A DNA stretch of 42,315 nucleotides from Tetrahymena elliotti 4EA (lineage: Eukaryota; Ciliophora; Oligohymenophorea; Hymenostomatida; Tetrahymenidae), in assembly GCA_000231825.2 (NCBI GenBank), contig JH720310.1:1249270-1291584 (forward strand), written 5' to 3'. The position numbers and the translations under genes are program-made. The notes under the pieces are model-generated. The model ran no database searches. It was not told the origin of the DNA and saw only the letters and a list, made by a program, of their open reading frames with translations. Shown piece after piece: positions 1 to 40,511 of this stretch (its first letter is position 1; every line of letters starts with the position of its first letter).

Positions 1-3000
1 TTTGCATGAAATATTATTTATCAATAAACTTTTATATTCTAAGGTAAATTATATTTAGAGAGTTTTGCTATTTGATCAGAAGAAGATATTGAATCCATCT
101 TTATTTTTCAAATTTAGAGTGGAATTAATATTTTTGAATGATTAACATAAAAAGTTTATTAATTAACTTTGATATTCTAAGGTAAATGATATTTTTGAGA
201 GTTTTACTAATTGATTAGAAGGAGATTGAATAAACTTTTTTATTAAAAAAATAGTCGGTAATTAATATTTTTGAATTATTTGCATGAAAAAATATAATTA
301 ATGAATTAACTTTTATATTCTAAGGTAAATGATATTTTTGAGAGTTTTACTTTTTAATCAGATGAAGATATTGAATCAACTTTTTTATTCAAAAAATAGA
401 TCGTAATTAATATCTTTTGAATGATTAGCATGAAAAGTTTATTAATTAGTTAATTTTTATATTCTAAGGTAAATTATATTTTTGAGAATTTCCTTTTGGA
501 TCAGAAGAAGCTATTTAATCAATTTTTATATTCTAAAAACAGCAAATAATTAATATTTTTTAATGGTTTCCATAAATATTATTAATTAATTTTTATATTC
601 TAAGGTAAATAATATTTTGAGAGTTTTGCTATTTGATCAGAAGAAGATATTGAATAAACCTTTTTATTAAAAAAATAGAGAGTAATTAATATTTTTGAAT
701 GAATTGTATGAAAATATTATTTATCAATTAACTTTAATATTCTAAGGTAAATGATATTTTTGAGAGTTTGCTTTTTGATCGATCAGATGAACATAATCAA
801 TTAATTAATATTTTTAAATAATTAAAAATAGAGGGTAAATTTTTTTAAAATTAATTTTCATTTGATTAAGTTATTTTTAAAGAAGGTTAGCTTAGCAATT
901 AAAAAGAAAGAAATGTTGATAAAATTTTATTTGTACTTGAACAGAATGTAGCTTCTTTTTTTTGGAAATTTTTATTCAACTTTTAAAATTTTAAATTAGA
1001 AATAAATAGTAGTTCACTCTTTAAAATATGATAAACAATTTTAAATTCGTTATTTCAATAAAAAGAGAGTAAACCCTTAAATAAAAAAAAATAAATTTAT
1101 TTGTACAAACTTAATAGATGGTAAGTAATTTCTTTAAATTAATCATAATTTATATTATAATTTTAATTAAAAGGAAGTAAAATTATGCTTCTATTTGAGA
1201 TTTTCAACTTATTTACTTATGTTTGATAGTGAGTACTTGATTAAAATTAGAAAGATAAAATATTTAATAACTATTTACACTAAAAAAGCTAGTAAACATT
1301 CTTCTTAAAATAGCATTTTCCATATATTTTTTCAACAGGAAGTAAAATTTAAGAGATTTCCAAATCTATTCATCTAAAAACTCAAATATTTTAATGATAA
1401 ATTAGAATGTAAAATTTGAGATTTTTATTAATAACTAAAAATATAATAAAAGTAAATTTTATTAAAAGGAAGTAAGATTTTGCTGTTTTCAAAAACAAAT
1501 GATATATTTTTGTTAAATTAAAATACAAAGTCTGTAATTAAATAGAAAGCTTATAAATGAATATAACTACTAATTTGAAATTAAAAAGATAGTAAACTAT
1601 TTTCATAAAACATTTCAAATAATAAAATATATTTAATAACAGTAAGGACAAGTAGTTTTTTGAACTAATTAATACTCTTTATTTTCAAGTAAAAAAAAAC
1701 TTTGTTACTTATTATCTAGGGAGTAATATTGGAAATTAATTATTTTAAAGAATTGAGAAATCTTTTTTGATAAAATCCAAAGGATGTAAATTTGAATTAT
1801 CTTTTCATTAAATAAATATTCAATTTATTTTAAAAAAAGGTAAAAGTAATTTCAATACAAAATGTTTATTGGTGTGACTCAATAAAATAAATAAAATTAG
1901 AATGTAAATTTTTAACCATTATTTGCTGAAAAGACTCTTATAATTTTGATAAAATTTAGCATGTAATTATTTTATTGAAAAATACATGAAAATTAATTTA
2001 ACATTGAAATATCAAAATTAGAGGGTAGCTTTATAACTTTTGAATAGAGAAAATTGTTTACGGACATTTTTAAATAGATAGTAAAATTATAATTCTTGAA
2101 AATCAAATGTTAGATTAACTTTTTAATTTTAATTTCAATAGTGTGTAAAGACAAATATACCAATAATTTAAATGTTCATTTATTTATATCATCAATAGCT
2201 AGTAAGTCTATTTATTAGTCATTTAATTCAAGTAAACTTATATTAATTCTAAATAGCAAGTAATTTCATAGACATTTGAAAAACATTGTTAGCTAATTTT
2301 TTACGAAAAAAAGCATGTAACATTTTTAAACTATTTGATAACAACTATTTTAATTCAATTTGTAACTTTATAAAGCAAGTAATATTTTAATCTACTTTAG
2401 CCTGAGAAAGTTAGCTTTTAACTATTTTATATTATACATAGACCATAGTAATTAGATTTTGAAATATTTGATCACAAAATAGAAACTAAATCTGATTATC
2501 AAAATAGTCAATAGTAATAATAATTCTTGAAAAAATATTTGATGAGAGGATATAATAAGATAATAATTAATCATTATTTATTATTTATTCTAAATCGTAG
2601 CGAGTAAAATATATATTTAAAATAATTTTAATTTGATAATAATCAGTTTATTTTCATTTTAACTTACTAATAAATTAAATAATATATTTAATATAGGAAT
2701 TTGTAACAAATGTTTTAAAAGAGTGGATGGATGAACTAATTTAAATAATAAATTTAGGTTGTTATTTTTAAACAAATCTTATTCAAACATTTAAACTAAT
2801 TTTCAATATAAATATAGCTAGTAATAGTTTGAAACCAATTTGGATTGACAAAAGAGGAATTTAAAAAATTATGAAAAATAGTTGGTATTTTGCTAACAAT
2901 TTGAATTTCATAATGATGAATTATTTTAAAATAAAAAGCGAGTACTTTTAAATATCTAAGACATTTCAAAATAGAAACAAATTTTAAAAAATTAGATAGT

Positions 3001-3509
3001 AAATATTTAATTAATGTTTAAAATTCAACCATAAATGAAATTTAAAAAATGAAGCGAGTAAAACATAATAAATAAATAAATTAAAACTTGAGTTTAAAAT
3101 TATTTAATAAATAGACTGTAATTAATTTGACATATTTTTCTTGGTCTTATTATTAATTTTGAAAAAAAAGCTTGTAAGTTTTTTTAAAAGCTTTGGGAAT
3201 ACTGAAAATGCTTCTTCTAATAAAAGAAGTTGGTAAACATTAAATAATATTTTTAAATATTGATTTTATTTTCTAAACAACTAAATTAATTATTTTGCAA
3301 TAATTATTTTTATTAATCAATTAGAGTAAGACATTTATTTTATCAAAGTTAATCTTTGAAGGCATCAATAAAAACATAAAAATAAATAGAGTCAAGTAGA
3401 AATGATAAAATATTTATAAGTTACCTTATATTTTTTGATTTAAACAATAAGTATGAGAGTTAAATACCATCAATCAGATTCAAATGAGACAGGACACAAT
3501 CAATAATGA
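1..3509 (+). CDS. Micro-exon gene: dozens of 3-9 nt exons plus a normal last exon (5' end outside window)
   Basis: Unrecognised protein. From 883 to 3232 there are 39 sites of form AG-(3, 6 or 9 nt)-GT, mostly 49-63 nt apart. Exons as read: 883-885, 945-947, 1000-1008, 1066-1068, 1118-1120, 1174-1176, 1230-1232, 1289-1291, 1339-1341, 1406-1408, 1469-1471, 1531-1533, 1589-1591, 1643-1651, 1720-1722, 1783-1785, 1840-1845, 1901-1903, 1960-1962, 2022-2024, 2078-2080, 2142-2144, 2199-2201, 2257-2259, 2314-2316, 2376-2378, 2442-2447, 2508-2513, 2601-2603, 2697-2702, 2758-2760, 2818-2820, 2882-2884, 2939-2941, 2996-2998, 3055-3057, 3115-3117, 3171-3173, 3230-3232, then 3362-3509. Sites at 255-257, 400-402, 679-681 and 832-834 extend it upstream. 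Joined with codons split 2+1 across introns, the frame has no TGA, contains KIIGYVYNIKPYQYENLFYC, and enters the last exon in phase, ending at TGA 3507-3509. The other two phases hit TGA (1230-1232; junction 1408/1469). The 129-nt last intron and a few exon bounds (1000, 1840, 2758) are less certain. Splicing itself is inferred. Confidence 0.6.
36..834 (+). repeat. Six-copy ~140-bp tandem repeat carrying paired splice-like sites
   Basis: The string ATTCTAAGGTAAA begins at 36, 174, 317, 461, 597 and 739, a spacing of 136-144 bp. Each unit holds an abutting AG|GTAAAT and, about 75 bp later, an AATAG-NNN-GTAATT site (NNN at 255-257, 400-402, 679-681). Two units have lost the second donor (GGAATT at 121, ATAATT at 546). 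A last AG-NNN-GTAAAT at 832-834 leads into the shorter-period array. The unit looks like a duplicated pair of introns belonging to the micro-exon gene. Confidence 0.85.
835..3361 (+). repeat. Phased array of AG-N(3n)-GTA motifs, period ~58 nt
   Basis: Across 2.4 kb the only conserved sequence is the bipartite AG...GTA motif. The bases between motif copies differ from unit to unit, and the spacer inside the motif is 3, 6 or 9 nt, never another length in the parse given for the micro-exon gene. Unit lengths are mostly 50-66 nt, with longer ones of 87-93 nt near 2514-2696. A decayed satellite would conserve arbitrary unit bases. Conservation limited to splice-like ends points to the intron/micro-exon reading. 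Confidence 0.8.
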
Positions 3510-4590
3510 AGAAGACAGGCACTTTGAAACTGATGATGAATATTTTTAAATAATTAATAAAGAATTATTATTTTATGTGAGGAATAATTATACTTTTTTA
3601 TGTTGTGAAGTTAATTTTACAAACATCATTTTTTTTTTCTTTTTTAAAACCTTTTTAAATAATACATACATATTTTAGTAACTCATAGTTATATATAATA
3701 TAAATAAACAAAGTAACTTTACATGAATTTTAAATACATGTAATTATATTTTTAATTGGCTTAAACTTAACCATTAAAAAACGAATATTCTTTTTTTTTT
3801 TTAATATTTTTCTTACTGCTTTTTAAAATTCCTTTTTAATTTTTTTTACTGGATATTAATCTTAAGAATTAATTCATCCTTGTTTATTTTTTTTAAATTT
3901 AAATTAAATTTGAAGTGAAAATTTAAAGAAAAATAAATATAAAGAAGTTAACTTTTATTTATCAAAATTCATAGTTTATTTTCAACAAATCAATTAAAAA
4001 ATAAAATAAAATAATTCAATTCTTTAAAAAAGGAAGAAAAAATATACCTGTTTCAGTAAAGACATATCATTTTTAAATAGAAAATAAAATGTTGATAGAT
4101 TTTTAAAGTTTGTTTAATATTTGAATGCATTTATCTGTTTCTTTCGTAAATTTGAAATAAAAATTATAAGAGCATCTGCAAATTTTTTATTTACCAATGT
4201 GAAATCTCAATTTTTGAATAAAAACTATAAAATTATTTTTTAAATGAGCTAAAAAACAAATCTGAATCAATTAACATTTAGTTGAAAAAGGGTTTGTATA
4301 AAAAATCTTATTTTTGAATATTTAATTCACAAATTAGTAAAGATATTGATTATTTTATTTTCTTCTCTAATGAGTTTTTGGCAGTAATTAAATACCCTTA
4401 ATTTTCATTAAAAAATCTTAAATTATTTACATTTAATCAGAATAAGATTCTACTAAACAAAAAAGCGCGAATTAATTATCATTAGTAATATTTTTATTTA
4501 TTTATTCAACATAATTAATCAAACAAAATAGTTCACCCACTTGTTTATGAGATTGATAATTTTAATAATAACTAAATTAAAAAAAATTAA
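3510..4590. other. AT-rich spacer, no gene seen
   Basis: Contains the likely 3' flank of the micro-exon gene, T-runs near 3630 and 3790, and no coding-like frame that I could support on either strand. An overlapping frame, 3484-3726 (80 codons), is open but runs into T-rich sequence and is probably chance. Confidence 0.6.
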
Positions 4591-7639: not shown

Positions 7640-9421
7640 TCAATGACTTTGCTATTTTTGGCAAGCTAATTTATTCATTTAAATCCAATTTGTTAATTAA
7701 GTTTTTGTTTTTATATATTGCTCTTAATTAGGATCAACTTGTTTGCCAAGTATTTCTTCTAATAATTATTCAATAGGTGCGTTTGCTTTGTCAGCCACAT
7801 GTTAGAGACATTTTTACTTGTAGAGATCATATTCATGATTCATTTCTGCAGCAATATTACTTTCTAATGCATCAATTGGATTTGGATGAAGCATTAATTC
7901 ACTGATTGAATTAAAAACTGCAGCCATAGTTAAGGCAGGAGACCAATTATCCTTAAGGATGTCTATACAAATTCTTCCTTGAGAATTTATGTTACAATGA
8001 TAAATTGGAGTGATAAATTTCACAGAAGGAGGTTTAAAAGGATATGATTATGGGAAATTTATGTAGAGCATGTACACTCCTTAATGATAGCTTGAACCTT
8101 CTGGACCTATCATTAATACTTTCCAGTTTGTAATATCATCTTGTTCAGGAAAGACTTTTACTTTATAGGTTTCTGGTTATGATGGGAAAAATTCAAGTTC
8201 TTTAAGTAGTCTTTTCATACATCCAGCACTGTACCCTGTTGCTGATTACTATTGTTATTATGGGTTGTTCTAAGGAGGTTAAGATATAATTTTTTAATAC
8301 TTTTTAATTATTTCTGAGGCATCACCAGCTTATTTACTTATTTATGCCTAATGAGTAACTTAAATACCTTCAGTATCAAAAGGTTTGTCACGAAGAATAT
8401 CTAAATTAATTTCTACATTTTGCAAAGGTTAATTGCTGCTATTTGGCAAATCTCTTGCTCTTACAGAGAGGATTGTTTCAATTTCAAATAACTTCATACC
8501 AACTGCAAGATCTTATGGGCAATAACAGCGACCTCCACTAGCATGAGTGATTGTTTTGAGTCCATAACTATCTTTTGAGACTACAAAAGAATCAAGAATA
8601 ATCCTATTCATGACAATTTATTTTGCAACTTCTTCTGGCTTGTATTTAGATTAGTTATCTTCACCATCAGTCATAGCAATTAATCTCAAAATAATGTTTG
8701 GGTATTTCTTTTTAATAAGTATTAAACTATTAATTCCTTCCATAAGCGCATCGTATAAACGAGTAGAACCTCTAGGATTAGCATCATCTACAAGCTTTAT
8801 AAAATAATTCATATCTTTTGTAAAATCGCATTTTTTTTCTATTTTGTCATCAAACCAGTAGAGTTAAACAATATGATTATACTCATAGGCTAAAGTTTTA
8901 TCTGCAAAAGCTGAAAAAAGAGCATTTACAGCTCCAATTCTTGATATCAAAGGGTCATTAAAGAATCCAGATTTCATTGAGCCTGAAACGTCATAAATTA
9001 CTACAATAGCCTCAGCAGGATCTTCTTCTTTTTATTATAAATCTACCTGGTTGGCTTAGTTGCTTTGCTCTTAACTAATTTGATCTGGATTTTTTGAATC
9101 TTAAGTAGGTGGTGTAAGTACTTAAACATTTTAATCCTACTTCTATTAATTCTATTGAATTTGTGCTTGGTTTACAATTACCTTTATCAGATCATTTTGA
9201 CTTATAAGCTATGAGACTATATCCTAATCGGAAAAAGCAAATTCGTCTTCATCTGCTAACAAGTAGTTTTAGGGCTCAAAAGTTTATCCCTTTAACAGTT
9301 CTGTAAGTCTACTTAGAAGAAGAGACTTTAGCTCTCCAATAGTTTACTATGGAGATGAAATTATCTGCTTGAATTTATTTGCTTCAAACTAAACTCTAAT
9401 AGATTTAAGATTTCCATCCAT
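7640..9421 (-). CDS. UBL-vWA-UBC fusion: E2 ubiquitin-conjugating enzyme with a von Willebrand A domain
   Basis: Intronless, 593 aa, ATG at 9421, TGA at 7642-7640. Residues 1-83 look like a ubiquitin-like fold (alternating strands, then ...NDLIKVIV). A Q-rich linker spans about 84-130. Residues about 136-330 form a vWA domain with the MIDAS motif DVSGSM (144-149). A second Q-run precedes an E2 fold from about 400 to 555, with the HPN motif as HCN (475-477) and the catalytic cysteine C485 in [16 protein letters not shown]. The tail is about 35 residues, Q/K-rich. The E2 would take ubiquitin from E1 as a thioester; vWA domains bind protein partners through a metal, so the fusion may carry its own substrate-recognition module. 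The family calls rest on motifs; the function of the combination is inferred. The UBL call is the least certain. Confidence 0.92.
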
Positions 9422-11035
9422 TTTTTTTGCTAACAATTATAAAGATAAATAACTATTGTTGTGAATTAGTATAGAATTTTAATATCTGATGATTATTATA
9501 TTTATGATAATTAAATATTATAGAATCAAGCTAAATTATCTTTTAAAGTAAGACAATTAATCTTAAAGGTATCTATTTAATAGATCAGAACAACAAAAAC
9601 TAATTCAGATTTAAACAAATTTTATTATTATAGACAACCTAAATAAATCTGTTCAGATAACAACTTTTCTTTAATTAATTATTTGATATTAACATTTTTT
9701 ATTAAATATATGTACCTTATCAAAAATTATAATTATATTTTTATTTACTTTCAACAACCTAAATTAAAAAAAAATTTTCAATTAAAAAAATCAATAATTT
9801 TTGATCAAATAATATTTTAATAATTTTAAATAATATATTAGAATAATATTAATATTTAAAAACACTTAGATATTTTTGAAAAACAAAAATCTCTATTTTA
9901 AAAGAATAAAAATTTATCTAGAAATTGAGGAGAAAATTAGATTAAAATATACAAATATAATAGGAAATTAAATTCTGCTTATTTTTAAATTAAAATATAA
10001 ATAATTAATTAGCATAAATAAAAATTGAATTTATAATCTAATTAAAAAAAGTAATCAACTCAGAAAAATAATTCAAAATGGATGAATTAATTATGAATTT
10101 TAGGTTAAGATTGATTAAAAATAATTGTTAACAAATATACGTTTGTTATTCATTTCAATTTTGACTTAAATTTTATTTCTTTTACTAAATTTTCCAATTT
10201 AATTAATAAATGGGGGGAAATGAAGATGAGATATTAGAATAATATTTTTTGGCTGTAAATTGTAAAATAATTTCTTAAATTAAATGAATTTGTGTTTGTC
10301 TTTTTGGAAACTTTGTATATTTAATAATGATTAAAAGATTTTTCAATATTTTTATGAATCTTTTTTCTTTGAAAAGATTAATAAATATTTTGTAATACTT
10401 CTTTGAATTTATTCGTTAAAGAATCTTTGTTTTTATTCCTTTTGAAAAGTTTAATTATTGGTTTATTTTTTTGCTTTATATTTAAAAAATTTTGGTAGAG
10501 TTTTCAATCTTTTTTCATATGAAAACATTTTATATAAATATCATGTTAAATTAAATGACGCAAATTTTAAAACTATTTTAGTTCTTAAATTTGAAATGAA
10601 ACAATCTTAGGATAAAAGTTGTTAGGTGCAGAAATGTTAGTAATTACACCTAACTCACTCAAAAAATACAAATGAATGAAATGTAATTAAAATCGCTTCT
10701 TTATACTTTATCATTTACAATTTCAAGTTTTAAGAAAAGTTTTAAGACTATTGTAATTACTTTATTAGTATTACTTTTATATAAGATTATAGAGAAAATT
10801 ATAAAAACTAACAAAGAAAGCAAACAATCATTAATTCATTCATTAAGTTGGAATTTATGAAAAGGGATAAATTTTTAGATAATTATTAAAATTCTGAGTA
10901 AAATGCCCTTGTTGAGTTTTAGACATTTTCTTTTCAAGGTACATAAATGCATGTTAAATTGAAATATTATTATTCCTAGGATGATTTTTACTTATTTTTT
11001 GTCATTTATAAATTTTAGGAGATTAAAATTCAACT
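9422..11035. other. AT-rich spacer between divergent genes
   Basis: Lies between the starts of the UBL-vWA-UBC gene (minus) and the 11036 gene (plus), so it should hold both promoters. No coding-like frame seen. The only compact feature is the inverted repeat at 10621-10654. Confidence 0.6.
10621..10654. promoter_or_regulatory. Inverted repeat GTTAGGTG...CACCTAAC
   Basis: Perfect 8-bp arms (10621-10628 and 10647-10654) around an 18-nt loop, GC-richer than the surroundings and about 380 bp upstream of the 11036 start codon. It could be a protein-binding site or a transcript hairpin; nothing in the sequence decides. Confidence 0.3.
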
Positions 11036-36226: not shown

Positions 36227-36447
36227 TCAGAAGATAAAAATCAACATTATAAAAACAAAAATATGTTTAAATATTGATGAGTTGGATGTAGGTATTGGAG
36301 ATTGTAGTGCATTCACTAATCCCATCATTTTGACCTGTAAAATTAAGAGGGCAAATACAATCAGTTACTTAAGTAGAGGGAAACACCATTTTTTAGCATT
36401 GATTACATGAAGTTGAACCAATTTTATTTGAATAAGTGTTAGTGGGG
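36227..36447 (-). pseudogene. 3'-end fragment of a cysteine-rich surface-protein gene
   Basis: Matches the last ~70 codons of the intact copies (NKIGSTSCNQC..., TQVTDCICP, FTGQNDGISEC) and ends in the same position (TGA 36229-36227). The reading frame shifts within the C-terminal hydrophobic tail, and the GPI-signal region is out of frame. Upstream similarity stops abruptly at about 36447, where sequence belonging to the 3' flank of the next copy begins. It is therefore a truncated duplicate. Confidence 0.85.
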
Positions 36448-36516
36448 TTTTAAACAATTCAATTTTAAATTATTTATTAGATTAACAAAAATATATAAAT
36501 AATTAACTTCTTTAAT
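36448..36516 (-). repeat. Duplicated 3' flank of the surface-protein genes
   Basis: The segment AACAATTCAATTTTAAATTAT and what follows up to the stop codon recurs at about 38470-38527 and, more diverged, at 41700-41766. A longer shared flank containing CTGATAAATCATAAACAAC occurs at 38392 and 41631. The gene copies were therefore duplicated together with their downstream DNA. Confidence 0.75.
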
Positions 36517-37680
36517 TCAGAAGAAAACAATTAAAGTTATAAGAACAAAACTATATTTTAACATAGTTGAATTTGATACAGGTATAGGTAATGCAGGCAT
36601 ACACTAATTCCATCATTTGAACCTAGCAAATACAGTCAATTACTGAAGTAGAACCAGAAGGCAAAATACGATTGTTTTAAAATTGATTACAGTAAGTTGA
36701 ACCATGTTTTATTTTAGTAAAAATTTTGAGGACATTAACTACAACCTAAGCAATGTCCGTTTTTATCATACCCAGATGGACTACTATATCCTCATAATTT
36801 TGTGGTTATTTAGCAAGAATTAGAGCCTTCTGTACACCATGTACCTGCTACACAAGGAATACATTATACAGCTCCTTAAGAATTTTAATAACTACCTTCA
36901 GGACAAGGTAAACATTTAAAAGCCCCAGTAGAATCTGAGTAGGTACCTTCTTTGCAATCAGAACAACCTTAGTAATCATTCCCTGTAGAACTGTATTTCC
37001 CAGGAAGACATAAACTAACATTTATTTCACAAGAAGAAGCTCCTTATTCCGATCATTTATTTTGAGGATATTTGGTACAGAAACTGGTTCCTTGGTTTGC
37101 AGCATAAGTTCCAGGGTCACACAAACTACATCCTACACCATTTCCATTAATATCATATTGCCATTTCTTTATTGGCTAAACATACCTTTTGGGCATAATT
37201 GAGTTTCAATAAGACAAATACTTACATTATCTGGTAAAGTCCAAGTACCATGTTTGCAAGCTTAGCAAGTAGTTGAACCAGCATTAGATGCATAAGTACC
37301 TGCTTGGCAATCAAAGCACCCGTTAGTTCCTTAATACCCAGTTTCACTATGGGTTCCAGCTGGACATTTCATATCTTAGATTGTACATGGTATAGCTCCT
37401 TCAGAAGAAAAATAACCTATGGGACATAGAGAACATCTAGTAGTTCCTTATTCTTCTGCAAAAGTACCAGCCTTGCATAATTAACATCCGTACCATTTCC
37501 ATCTTAATCGTATCCAAACTAACTGTAAGCCTGGTGGACATTTCTTAGTAGGAATAGAGCAAAAACTACTTCCTTATGTAGAACTGAAGCCACCTGGGCA
37601 ACGCTAACACCTTTTAGAACCAGAATAAGGTGCAAAAGTACCTTATTCACATTAGATGCATCCAGTACCTTACCCTTTTA
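36517..37680 (-). pseudogene. Cysteine-rich surface-protein pseudogene
   Basis: About 80% similar by eye to the intact gene at 38528-40090 and colinear with its last three quarters. Lesions: a 2-nt insertion near 37152-37160 shifts the frame; a TGG codon for Trp has become TGA near 37063 (AATAAATGATCGG on the minus strand); a 13-nt deletion lies near 36625; and the 5' quarter, including signal peptide and start, is missing. Similarity ends at about 37675 in unrelated AT-rich DNA. CxxC modules remain recognisable. Without expression data, residual transcription cannot be excluded, but no full protein can be made. Confidence 0.9.
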
Positions 37681-37889
37681 AAACATTTTATTTTCAAATA
37701 AAATACTTCAAAAAAAAACAAAAAAAAAATTATTTTTTTTCTTAAAAAAAACATATCACAAAATTAAAAGTTTGAATGAAAGAAAAAATATTAAATTTAT
37801 AAAGTAAAATAATAAATGCATTCAGTATTTCTTTTATATAAAATTATAAATATTTAATTTAATTAAATAAGAAAAAGAAAAATAATATT

Positions 37890-38405
37890 TCATATAAATT
37901 TTGTTTAAAGATAAATACTTTAAAATTATATTTAAAATATTTACAAAATTAAAAAATTAAAAAAATATTACAATAAATAAAATTTCTTTATCAAAAAGGA
38001 ATGAAAATTTTTTTTTAATTTAAAATGCTAGATTTAAACCTATCCATATTAATTTGTTTATTTCTCATTATTTTTTATAAAAGATAAAATGATTAAAACT
38101 TTTATTTTATCATGGTTATACAAATCAGCTTAATATTTCTTGTAATAGTTTTATATTCTATGAATATTGTAATTTCTTGAAGATTAGTATTCAATTTAAC
38201 TTCTAAAATTCTTGAACAAATTCACAAATTTATTAAAATCAATTTTATGAATGCCATCAAGATTTGCAGCATCCTTCCCTTTTTAGATCAGTAATCTAAT
38301 TTTCTAAATAAGTATGCTATTGTGAATTTTATTTTAATAATTCTTTTTAAATTATTTATCAAATCTTTAATGAGCGTAATAATTTTATTTATCCTGATAA
38401 ATCAT
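37890..38405 (-). CDS. Possible EF-hand-like protein, 171 aa
   Basis: Open in the ciliate code from ATG 38405 to TGA 37892-37890. Residues about 1-110 look genuinely coding: basic and helical, with an EF-hand-like piece (NLDGIHKIDFNKFVNLFKNF) whose loop is not canonical. The last ~50 residues are Phe/Leu/Ile/Gln-rich and may be intron or noncoding. The start codon lies in the flank sequence shared with 41625-41645, so the ORF may be a gene fragment captured between surface-protein copies, or the end of a longer gene whose other exons I could not find. It lies on the same strand as the surface-protein genes, between the pseudogene and the intact copy. Confidence 0.4.
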
Positions 38406-38527
38406 AAACAACCATCAACAATTGAAAAGGTATTTCGCAAAAAGACAATTAAAAAATAAATTTTCCAAACAACTCAATTTTAAATTATTAGTTTAACAAA
38501 TACATATATATAATAAACTTCTTTTAT

Positions 38528-40090
38528 TCAGAAGAAAAAAATTAATGTTATAAGAACCAAACTATATTTTAACATAGTTGAATTTGATACAGGTATTGGT
38601 AGTGGTGTGCATACACTAATCCCATCATTTGGACCTGTAAAGTTAGGAGGACAAATACAGTCAGTTACTTAAGTAGAACCAAAAGGGGAAACACGATTGT
38701 TTTAGCATTGATTACATGAAGTTGAACCAGTTTTATTTTAATAAGTATTTCTAGGGCATTAACTACAACCTAAGCAATGCCCATTTTAATCATTCCCAGA
38801 TTTACTATAAGTTCCTGCTAGACATAGCTTTGTGGTTATTTGGCAAGAATTAGAACCTTGCTTAGACCATGTACCTGCTGCACAAGGAATACATTATACA
38901 GCTCCTTAAGAATTTTAATAAGTACCTTCAGGACAAGGTAAACATCTAAAAGCTCCAGCAGAATCTGAGTAGTTACCTTCTTTGCAATCAGAACAGCCTT
39001 AATAATCATTCCCTGTAGAACTGTATTTTCCAGGAGAGCATAAACTAACATTTATTTCACAAGAAGAAGCTCCTTATTCTGACCACTTATTTTCAGGACA
39101 TTTTGTACAGTAACTGGTTCCTTTATTTGCAGCGTAAGTTCCAGGGCCACACAAACTACATCCTTTACCATTTCCATCAATATCGTAACCATTTCTTTAT
39201 AAGCTAAACATACCTTGTGGGCATTATTTAGTAATTATAGTGCAACTTACAGCGTTTTTTGTAGACCAAGAACCAGGTTGACAAGTTTAGCAAGTTGTTG
39301 AACCAGCATCAGATGCATAGTAACCTCCTTAACAATCATAGCATCCGATAGTTCCTTCATATCCAGTTTCACTATAGGTTCCAGCTGGACATTTTTTATC
39401 TTAGATTGTACATGATATAGCTCCTTCATAAGAAATATAACCTATGGGACATGGAGTACATTTAGTAGTTCCTTATTAATCTGTAAAAGTACCAGCCTTG
39501 CATTATTAACAACCTGTACCGTTTCCATCTTAATCGTATCCAAACTGACTGTAAGTACCTGGTGGGCATTACTTAGTAGGAATAGAACAAAAACTACTTC
39601 CTATTGTAGAAGTGAAGCCATCTGGGCAACGTTAGCAACGTTGAGAACCAGGTTTAGCAGCAAAAGTACCTTATTCACATTAGTTACATCCAGTACCTTA
39701 GCCATCTATGTCATATCCATTGAAATTGTAAGAACCAGGTAAACATTAATTTGTAGAAATATCACAAGAAGCTGATCCTGGATTAGAATAATAGCCAGAA
39801 GGGCAATACACACACTAAATAAGATGTCCTTAAAGTTTTTAAGGATACTAACCTGCAGGACAAGGATAACATTCTTAATTATTATATGAACTCACATAAC
39901 CTGCTTGGCATTGAGTGCAACCTCCACCTTAACCATCTAGATCATATCCACTTTCACTATAAAAGCCATCTGGACAATTAGGAGTACAAAATGGATAATC
40001 CACATAATCTCTATGCATAGAGGTTATACCAACCTAATATGCTGATGTTAAAAATAGTGAAATTAAAAAAATGATAAGAGTATTTCTCAT
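38528..40090 (-). CDS. Cysteine-rich, probably GPI-anchored surface protein (i-antigen-like), 520 aa
   Basis: Intronless; ATG 40090, TGA 38530-38528. Residues 1-18 (MRNTLIIFLISLFLTSAY) form a signal peptide. The body is a chain of about nine modules of 45-50 residues built on CxxC pairs, with recurring GYDxDGxGxGCxxC, CPxGxYS and GS(T/A)xC(Q/N)xC elements. This resembles GCC2/GCC3 or ephrin-receptor-like cysteine-rich repeats and ciliate immobilisation antigens. The C-terminus, NSTMLKYSLVLITLIFFF, is a hydrophobic tail with nothing after it, as in GPI-anchor signals. The protein should be secreted and held on the cell or ciliary surface by disulfide-rich modules. The neighbouring paralogues share up to the last residue. 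The surface-antigen role is inferred from architecture only. Confidence 0.93.
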
Positions 40091-40497
40091 TAATTTTTTT
40101 AGTAATTTAAAATTTTACTTGAATTAAAAAATTAAATGATTTGTTTTAATGATTTGACTTTTAAATTAGTTTGATTTTAATTTAAGCTTGAGATTAATTT
40201 GTCTATTTTTATTATTAACCTGATCAGCTAGAAATTATTTTAGAGTAATTAAACATTTGTGACCTTTTGTCAATGGTAAATTTTTCTATTCCCAAATTTT
40301 AATTAGCACCAATCTCTTTTTCTTTATTTTTTAATTTATCCAGAATAAATAATAATTTTTGATATTCTTATGTTATTTAAACCTAATCAATATTTTTCTC
40401 ATATTATCAACAGAGTATATTGTAAAAAAACTTTTAAAATTGCTTTACTTAAGTTAAAAAAAATGAAATCTCACGTAGGTTGTGAACATTGCGAGCA

Positions 40498-40511
40498 GTG
40501 AACATGTTCAC
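40498..40511. promoter_or_regulatory. Perfect 14-bp palindrome GTGAACATGTTCAC
   Basis: About 410 bp upstream of the 40090 start codon, inside a locally GC-richer patch. An imperfect outer repeat (ATTGCGAGCAG on the left, CTGTTAGCAAT on the right) extends the symmetry. It has the form of a dimeric transcription-factor site. It may instead be coding sequence of the small ORFs that cross it. Confidence 0.35.

Follow-up and report, generated by a model that had tools for sequence, protein, structure and literature searches.

How finely can a coding region be divided into exons? The question is raised by a stretch of 42,315 nucleotides of Tetrahymena elliotti 4EA, referred to here as the window, which corresponds to positions 1249270-1291584 of contig JH720310.1 (called here C18, C-numbers denoting contigs) in an assembly of 89,954,799 bases and 134 contigs. 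A first-pass annotation, made from the letters of the window, had proposed that its beginning holds one unusual gene built from consecutive micro-exons of 3-9 nt. Our analysis makes it very probable that positions 832-3232 of the plus strand encode, as predicted, the C-terminal part of a likely kinase-family protein; there, 40 mostly single-codon exons would be joined into one frame by the successive removal of introns of about 56 nt. We take the genome for macronuclear; GGGGTT repeats were present at one of the three contig ends looked at, and TAA and TAG encode glutamine in the window genes. The closest named proteins come from Tetrahymena, and those that match in T. thermophila SB210 are not identical.

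The array is laid out as follows.

832..3232, plus strand: array of 40 predicted micro-exons and their introns, every exon with AG before it and GT after it
Micro-exons 1-10, plus strand: 832-834, 883-885, 945-947, 1000-1008, 1066-1068, 1118-1120, 1174-1176, 1230-1232, 1289-1291, 1339-1341
Micro-exons 11-20, plus strand: 1406-1408, 1469-1471, 1531-1533, 1589-1591, 1643-1651, 1720-1722, 1783-1785, 1840-1845, 1901-1903, 1960-1962
Micro-exons 21-30, plus strand: 2022-2024, 2078-2080, 2142-2144, 2199-2201, 2257-2259, 2314-2316, 2376-2378, 2442-2447, 2508-2513, 2601-2603
Micro-exons 31-40, plus strand: 2697-2702, 2758-2760, 2818-2820, 2882-2884, 2939-2941, 2996-2998, 3055-3057, 3115-3117, 3171-3173, 3230-3232

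Thirty-four of these exons measure 3 nt, four 6 nt and two 9 nt; the first-pass annotation, right about the array, had counted 39 of them. The introns average 57.8 nt (calculated with the last exon in a 6-nt form, AAGTTG), 37 of the 39 falling between 47 and 68 nt and the other two measuring 87 and 93 nt, and the GC content is 29.2% in the micro-exons against 17.3% in the introns. The claimed succession of AG-(3,6,9)-GT sites was confirmed by counting: between positions 820 and 3520 of the plus strand, AG-N3-GTA occurs 32 times, compared to 2.4 sites expected from the remaining plus strand and to 1.67 +/- 1.21 sites (maximum 5) in 300 first-order Markov shuffles. Among the 13 gap lengths tested (0-12 nt), 3 nt alone stands out. 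Gaps of 6 nt, with 6 sites against 1.7 and at most 7 in the shuffles, and of 1 nt, with 4 sites against 1.7 and at most 5, are only mildly raised, and zero-length exons (AG/GTA) show no excess in the main array, with one site for 2.6 expected. Chains of AG-(3,6,9)-GT sites spaced 45-80 nt apart have 29 and 10 members in the array, and the longest such chain in the rest of the window has 3 members on the plus strand and 7 on the minus strand. A tandem repeat was considered as the source of the array and rejected, as Tandem Repeats Finder reports nothing within 832-3232 and a 143-bp array at 1-780.

When the 40 exons and the A at position 3323 are joined, one of the three frames is free of internal TGA and reads GRINKQEWNDQKMNLYKDKEMQKIIGYVYNIKPYQYENLFYCEYELF followed by the stop, whereas the other two contain TGA. 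The codons are divided 2+1 between successive exons, so that both features of the joined frame are as first described. In the predicted spliced product, the codons would follow one another without a break, as in CGAATACGAACTCTT.

The exon lengths were then left free. The parser combined splice-site weights with a flat prior on exon lengths of 1-30 nt; the sites used for training were spaced 3, 6 or 9 nt, but the weights carry no length information. The frame-free parse was preferred to the frame-aware one, which in some arrays bypassed the TGA at the end. Of the 419 micro-exons in the nine strongest arrays, 402 were multiples of three (3n) and 333 were exactly 3 nt long, compared to 72 of 213 (12 exactly 3 nt) in 30 control chunks of the window and 15 of 39 (6 exactly 3 nt) on the antisense strand of the nine arrays. 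With all 17 regions tried, the weak ones included, the values were 491 of 529 and 399. Introns were shorter than 100 nt in 320 of 331 cases, with a median of 60 nt. As read from the parses, the intron phase is constant within each array, being 2 in the kinase family described below and 0 in the arrays of L039, L046, L047 and L049 (L-numbers denote the 17 fetched stretches of 10 kb: listed pattern clusters, single matches and window neighbours).

Further evidence came from related arrays. Two more copies of the window array, A and B, lie upstream on C18, both in L053. In the alignment, copy A keeps 31 of 35 AG and GT pairs intact (64 of 70 AG bases, 66 of 70 GT bases and 1349 of 1802 ungapped intron positions are those of the window). 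Copy B (L053:3031-5393, the third tandem copy) keeps 15 of 35 pairs, its splice sites being largely lost. Two runs of micro-exons recur elsewhere.

2022..2378, plus strand: seven micro-exons AGG ATA TGT CTA CAA CAT CAA (G-Y-V-Y-N-I-K), the same in copy A
2939..3173, plus strand: five micro-exons CGA ATA CGA ACT CTT (C-E-Y-E-L), the same on C24

The last micro-exons on C24 thus match those of the window, and the introns between them are at shuffled level: the identities of the four introns were 0.64, 0.58, 0.60 and 0.49, compared to 0.62, 0.58, 0.62 and 0.48 after shuffling. On C17, three of the four exons compared are identical to those of the window and the introns are at or below the shuffled level, one slightly above. 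The triad AG-CGA-GTA, AG-ATA-GTA, AG-YGA-GTA was found at 15 places in the genome, and neither the reversed pattern nor permuted codons gave a single match. Two genes on C3, parsed into 75 and 77 exons, can be aligned over 76 triplets and differ by several whole exons; in the coding frame each copy has a single TGA, at its end, while the other two frames hold 7 TGA each.

These copies also locate the end of the protein.

3231-3232 and 3323, plus strand: predicted stop TGA split by an intron (TG, then A), with the same split end in copy A, on C17 and in both C3 copies

The five readable tails, from three chromosomes, end in CEYELF (window), CEYELL (copy A), CEYELN (C17), CLYELY and CLYVIF (C3), each directly followed by the stop. 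They share the end C-x-Y-x-x-x-TGA, with TG in the last micro-exon and A in the next. The C-terminus of the window protein is accordingly predicted to be ...FYCEYELF, the TGA being split TG/A over 3231-3232 and 3323, and TTG (3230-3232) is a likelier form of the last micro-exon than AAGTTG. The first-pass annotation had the frame run in phase into a terminal exon with its stop at 3507-3509; that stop was rejected because in the tandem copies, as on C17 and C3, TG/A comes directly after the C-x-Y motif.

To which genes do such tails belong? The ordinary exons upstream of the arrays on C3, C17 and C18 code for a protein kinase domain, the joined C3 exons scoring 119.8 bits against PF00069 (cut-off 31.7; E 1.8e-34). 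By eye, the catalytic loop reads CLVNDLKxDN in place of the usual HRD motif, and the D, K and N residues and DFG are retained. Kinase exons with LVND in place of HRD were seen in L050, L043, L045 and L053. Where the order could be read, a kinase domain is followed by a coiled-coil-like stretch and then by the micro-exons. An N-lobe exon used as query gave 38 matches in the genome, and a catalytic-loop exon gave 29 matches at the head of its list with at least 69% identity and E <= 1e-24; these counts point to a family of about 30-35 kinase loci. The first 33 database matches to the kinase came from T. thermophila (29), T. utriculariae (3) and T. malaccensis (1).

A family kinase exon on the same strand precedes 11 of the 15 triads at a distance of 5.6-13.8 kb. 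For linkage within 15 kb the chance per triad is 0.0029 and the binomial P is 1.8e-25, with a list of 35 kinase exons, drawn from the matches to both query exons, from which one weak C26 match, duplicate rows of the same genes and weaker kinases were omitted. By analogy with its sister loci, the window array would belong to the kinase exon 13.8 kb upstream, itself recognised by a tblastn match; we infer this link rather than read it, because part of the intervening DNA reads N. It should be noted that the C17 tail is absent from the three T. thermophila models compared, and that in 13 sequences read by eye the models run out past the kinase and coiled-coil-like part.

Arrays are also present in other genes. 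By eye, the array of L049 (C16:847500-857499) follows a cysteine-rich protein and that of L046 a zinc-finger-like reading frame, neither with a kinase. The L049 gene matches TTHERM_00189380 (272 aa), whose annotated end is ...LLNVSWR-WEKY-EDI-VINYILK. WEKY and EDI are the peptides of the 12-nt (3978-3989) and 9-nt (4054-4062) micro-exons of L049, the first two of its array, and after EDI the model reads VI, as the intron start GTAATA would. The T. thermophila model apparently reads through into the intron and would thus be truncated inside the array; the T. malaccensis model diverges ahead of WEKY. These observations suggest that Tetrahymena proteins as annotated may end too early, at the point where an array starts.

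Across the genome, the chain pattern GTAA-N(40-60)-AG-N3-GTAA-N(40-60)-AG-N3-GTAA gave 478 matches compared to 107 for the reversed pattern, whereas its equivalent with 4-nt exons gave 50 compared to 94. Among the matches listed, the places of the 3-nt chains are known for the first hundred or so, on C1-C17. A strict chain of at least 5 was found in 10 of the 17 fetched stretches, on C1, C3, C5, C16, C17 and C18, and was not seen in the other seven (L041, L044, L045, L048, L051, L054 and L055); despite the lack of a strict chain, 13 of 15 exons of L041 were 3n in the free-length parse. The micro-exon coding region first noticed in the window therefore stands, but it is not a singular gene: it is one tail in a family of about 30-35 kinase loci, and arrays occur in other genes too.

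Taken together, the constraint on exon length, the C24 codons kept over saturated introns, the open frame, the common stop and the kinase linkage argue for coding sequence divided into consecutive exons, mostly of one codon and all in the same phase. The original reading of a gene of successive micro-exons is supported as regards the coding array and its phase, and given up as regards the position of the stop and the uniqueness of the gene.

Several results weigh against this interpretation. For the four remaining triads the search within 15 kb gave no kinase exon: the distance is 20 kb for one and 41 kb for another, and the other two are on contigs that lack such an exon upstream of them. Lengths of 3n are not avoided among the introns (116/109/106 by length class), in-frame TGA is not in excess (127/331 compared to 224/662), and no signature of nonsense-mediated decay was seen in them. 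Outside the motifs, exons are overall not better kept than introns between the window and copy A (93/120, 77.5%, compared to 74.9%), nor are they between the window and copy B, whose former exons have diverged more than its introns (62/97, 64%, compared to 79%), and the intron-by-intron comparison over five exons covers a single distant copy, that of C24. Changes in the coding frame are mostly nonsynonymous, with synonymous:nonsynonymous ratios of 7:15 on C18 and 9:36 on C3; the other two frames gave 1:22 and 3:20 on C18 and 2:46 and 8:39 on C3. A search for homologues of the tail peptides in proteins of about 223-710 aa yielded 106 candidates at E <= 10, none of them a homologue, and no Pfam family matched the tail at its cut-off. 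Finally, a segment past the predicted stop (3493-3629, described below) is more similar between copies than introns are.

Could the AG-NNN-GT sites be recursive splice points within one long intron or 3' untranslated region (UTR), whose triplets are not retained? In recursive splicing at such ratchet points, acceptor and donor stand side by side and the intron is removed stepwise in one direction. That AG and GT are almost adjacent here, and that each aligned 143-bp unit of the neighbouring repeat contains an AG/GT site with zero gap, would fit this possibility. Ratchet points, however, require neither 3n gaps nor kept codons, and here the gaps are 3n, C24 has the same codons in spite of its saturated introns, one frame is open up to a common stop and WEKY-EDI lies inside a T. 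thermophila protein. The main array moreover has a single AG/GTA where 2.6 are expected, and it is a conserved codon, predicted to remain in the mRNA, that separates acceptor from donor. We consider recursive splice points of this kind improbable.

Slightly less probable still is that the window array is the decaying, non-functional tail of such a gene. Its rapid, mostly nonsynonymous change, the clearly broken adjoining copy B (15/35 pairs intact) and the loss of the donor in two 143-bp units of the window speak for it; against it stand the single open frame that runs through 40 consecutive 3n exons, the stop shared with copies on other chromosomes, the five exons that are the same as on C24 and the 31 of 35 pairs that copy A retains. 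A non-coding repeat of about 60 bp, or a DNA-binding motif AG-NNN-GTAA unrelated to splicing, is largely contradicted and has hardly any probability left: the spacing is regular and a true tandem repeat adjoins the array, but Tandem Repeats Finder is blank in 832-3232, the gap is always 3n even though the spacing ranges from 50 to 77, the match depends on the particular triplets (15 places compared to 0 with permuted codons) and nothing appears on the antisense strand.

If 832-3232 is a coding region of single-codon exons, how would it be spliced? We infer that the RNA would be spliced codon by codon. Three nucleotides leave no room for the 3' splice-site complex and U1 together; sequential removal is therefore likely. 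The mechanism we think most likely is pure intron definition, which introns of this small size would allow, proceeding step by step in a recursive-like manner: removing one intron would join a codon to the growing exon and then free the next donor three bases on. A bolder proposal, which we put forward tentatively and with less confidence than the coding character of the array, is that a genome-wide class of genes writes its protein tails one codon per exon, the array being unzipped strictly 5' to 3' with a donor regenerated at each junction. Because each exon is frame-neutral, single residues could be skipped, gained or lost without breaking the protein, and the tails could be edited or grown residue by residue at the splicing level.

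The 143-bp units adjoining the array bear on its origin.

1..780, plus strand: 143-bp tandem repeat, 5.6 copies (Tandem Repeats Finder), its units with a variable AG-triplet-GT and an AG/GT site

Parsable 3-nt exons are found at 255-257 (TCG), 400-402 (ATC) and 679-681 (AGA), and two other units of the window have a broken donor. Each aligned unit combines the conserved AG/GT site (TTCTAAG/GTAAAT) with a hypervariable triplet. Further 143-bp units were observed at L052:2415-3351. When eight units were compared (five from the window and three from L052), identity was 30% in the AG-GT triplet and 87% in the other columns, the former being the lowest value of 130 triplets, which suggests diversifying change in the unit codons, as judged from eight units of which two have lost the donor. 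Of the possibilities raised at first for the architecture (a splicing timer, a quality-control target or intron gain by duplication), the last receives some support from these units, which look like recent duplications. The arrays may grow and shrink by whole units of intron plus codon, of which the 143-bp repeats resemble a young case; frame and phase would be preserved because gain and loss go by whole units, and the constant phase within each array implies that units could come and go without frameshift.

If this is true, up to about 75 introns would serve some 80-100 residues, and dozens of exact splicing events would be needed for each short protein tail. The arrays would show whether splicing can proceed by intron definition alone when no exon-definition complex could fit on the exons, would open the sequence of intron removal to direct testing and would provide a case of intron gain through duplication of an intron+codon unit. 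Should transcripts confirm them, they would be the most finely divided coding regions known to us.

Micro-exon genes are already known as a kind, of which the present arrays would be an extreme. Schistosome micro-exon genes (MEGs) have 10-20 short exons, mostly of 15 bp, and introns of 0.1-5 kb, the shortest exon being given as 6 in the text and 3 in the abstract (PMC10526429). Both systems show runs of very short exons, mostly 3n, overlooked by automatic annotation. Unlike those MEGs, the arrays are predicted by homology to have 40-76 consecutive coding exons (40 in the window, 75-77 parsed on C3), mostly of 3 nt and nearly all 3n (402/419), with introns of about 50-70 nt (320/331 below 100 nt), in a ciliate kinase family. 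Microexons of 1-15 nt in plants and other organisms (PMC8831610) are likewise exons of a few nucleotides, often unannotated and evolutionarily kept, but they come mostly as one or two per gene and about half are 3n, whereas here tens follow in series and nearly all are 3n. In Tetrahymena itself, the leucine-rich repeat (LRR) genes share the use of one intron phase, being described as arrays of equal 90-bp exons in phase 2, attributed to exon duplication (PMC6564038). Each of those exons encodes a leucine-rich repeat; here the exons measure 3-9 nt, with one codon per exon and no common repeat sequence between exons, in a kinase family. Searches of open-access papers, preprints excluded, listed no description of ciliate arrays of 40-76 consecutive, mostly single-codon exons.

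Two features lie past the predicted stop.

3390..3395, plus strand: possible 6-nt exon AGTCAA (GATCAA in copy A) with AG and GT flanks
3493..3629, plus strand: segment in which the copies are more similar than in introns, with one frame open

Identity of the second segment to the window is 117/137 (85%) in copy A and 125/137 (91%) in copy B. By eye, the differences between copies look mostly nonsynonymous, and no matching frame was found on C17. The segment could be a conserved 3' UTR or an additional exon.

Elsewhere in the window, an open reading frame (ORF) at 7640-9604 on the minus strand contains the PF00179 domain of ubiquitin-conjugating enzymes, together with a VWA-like match slightly below the cut-off, and ORFs at 36227-40507, also on the minus strand, carry ephrin-receptor-like cysteine-rich repeats (PF07699).

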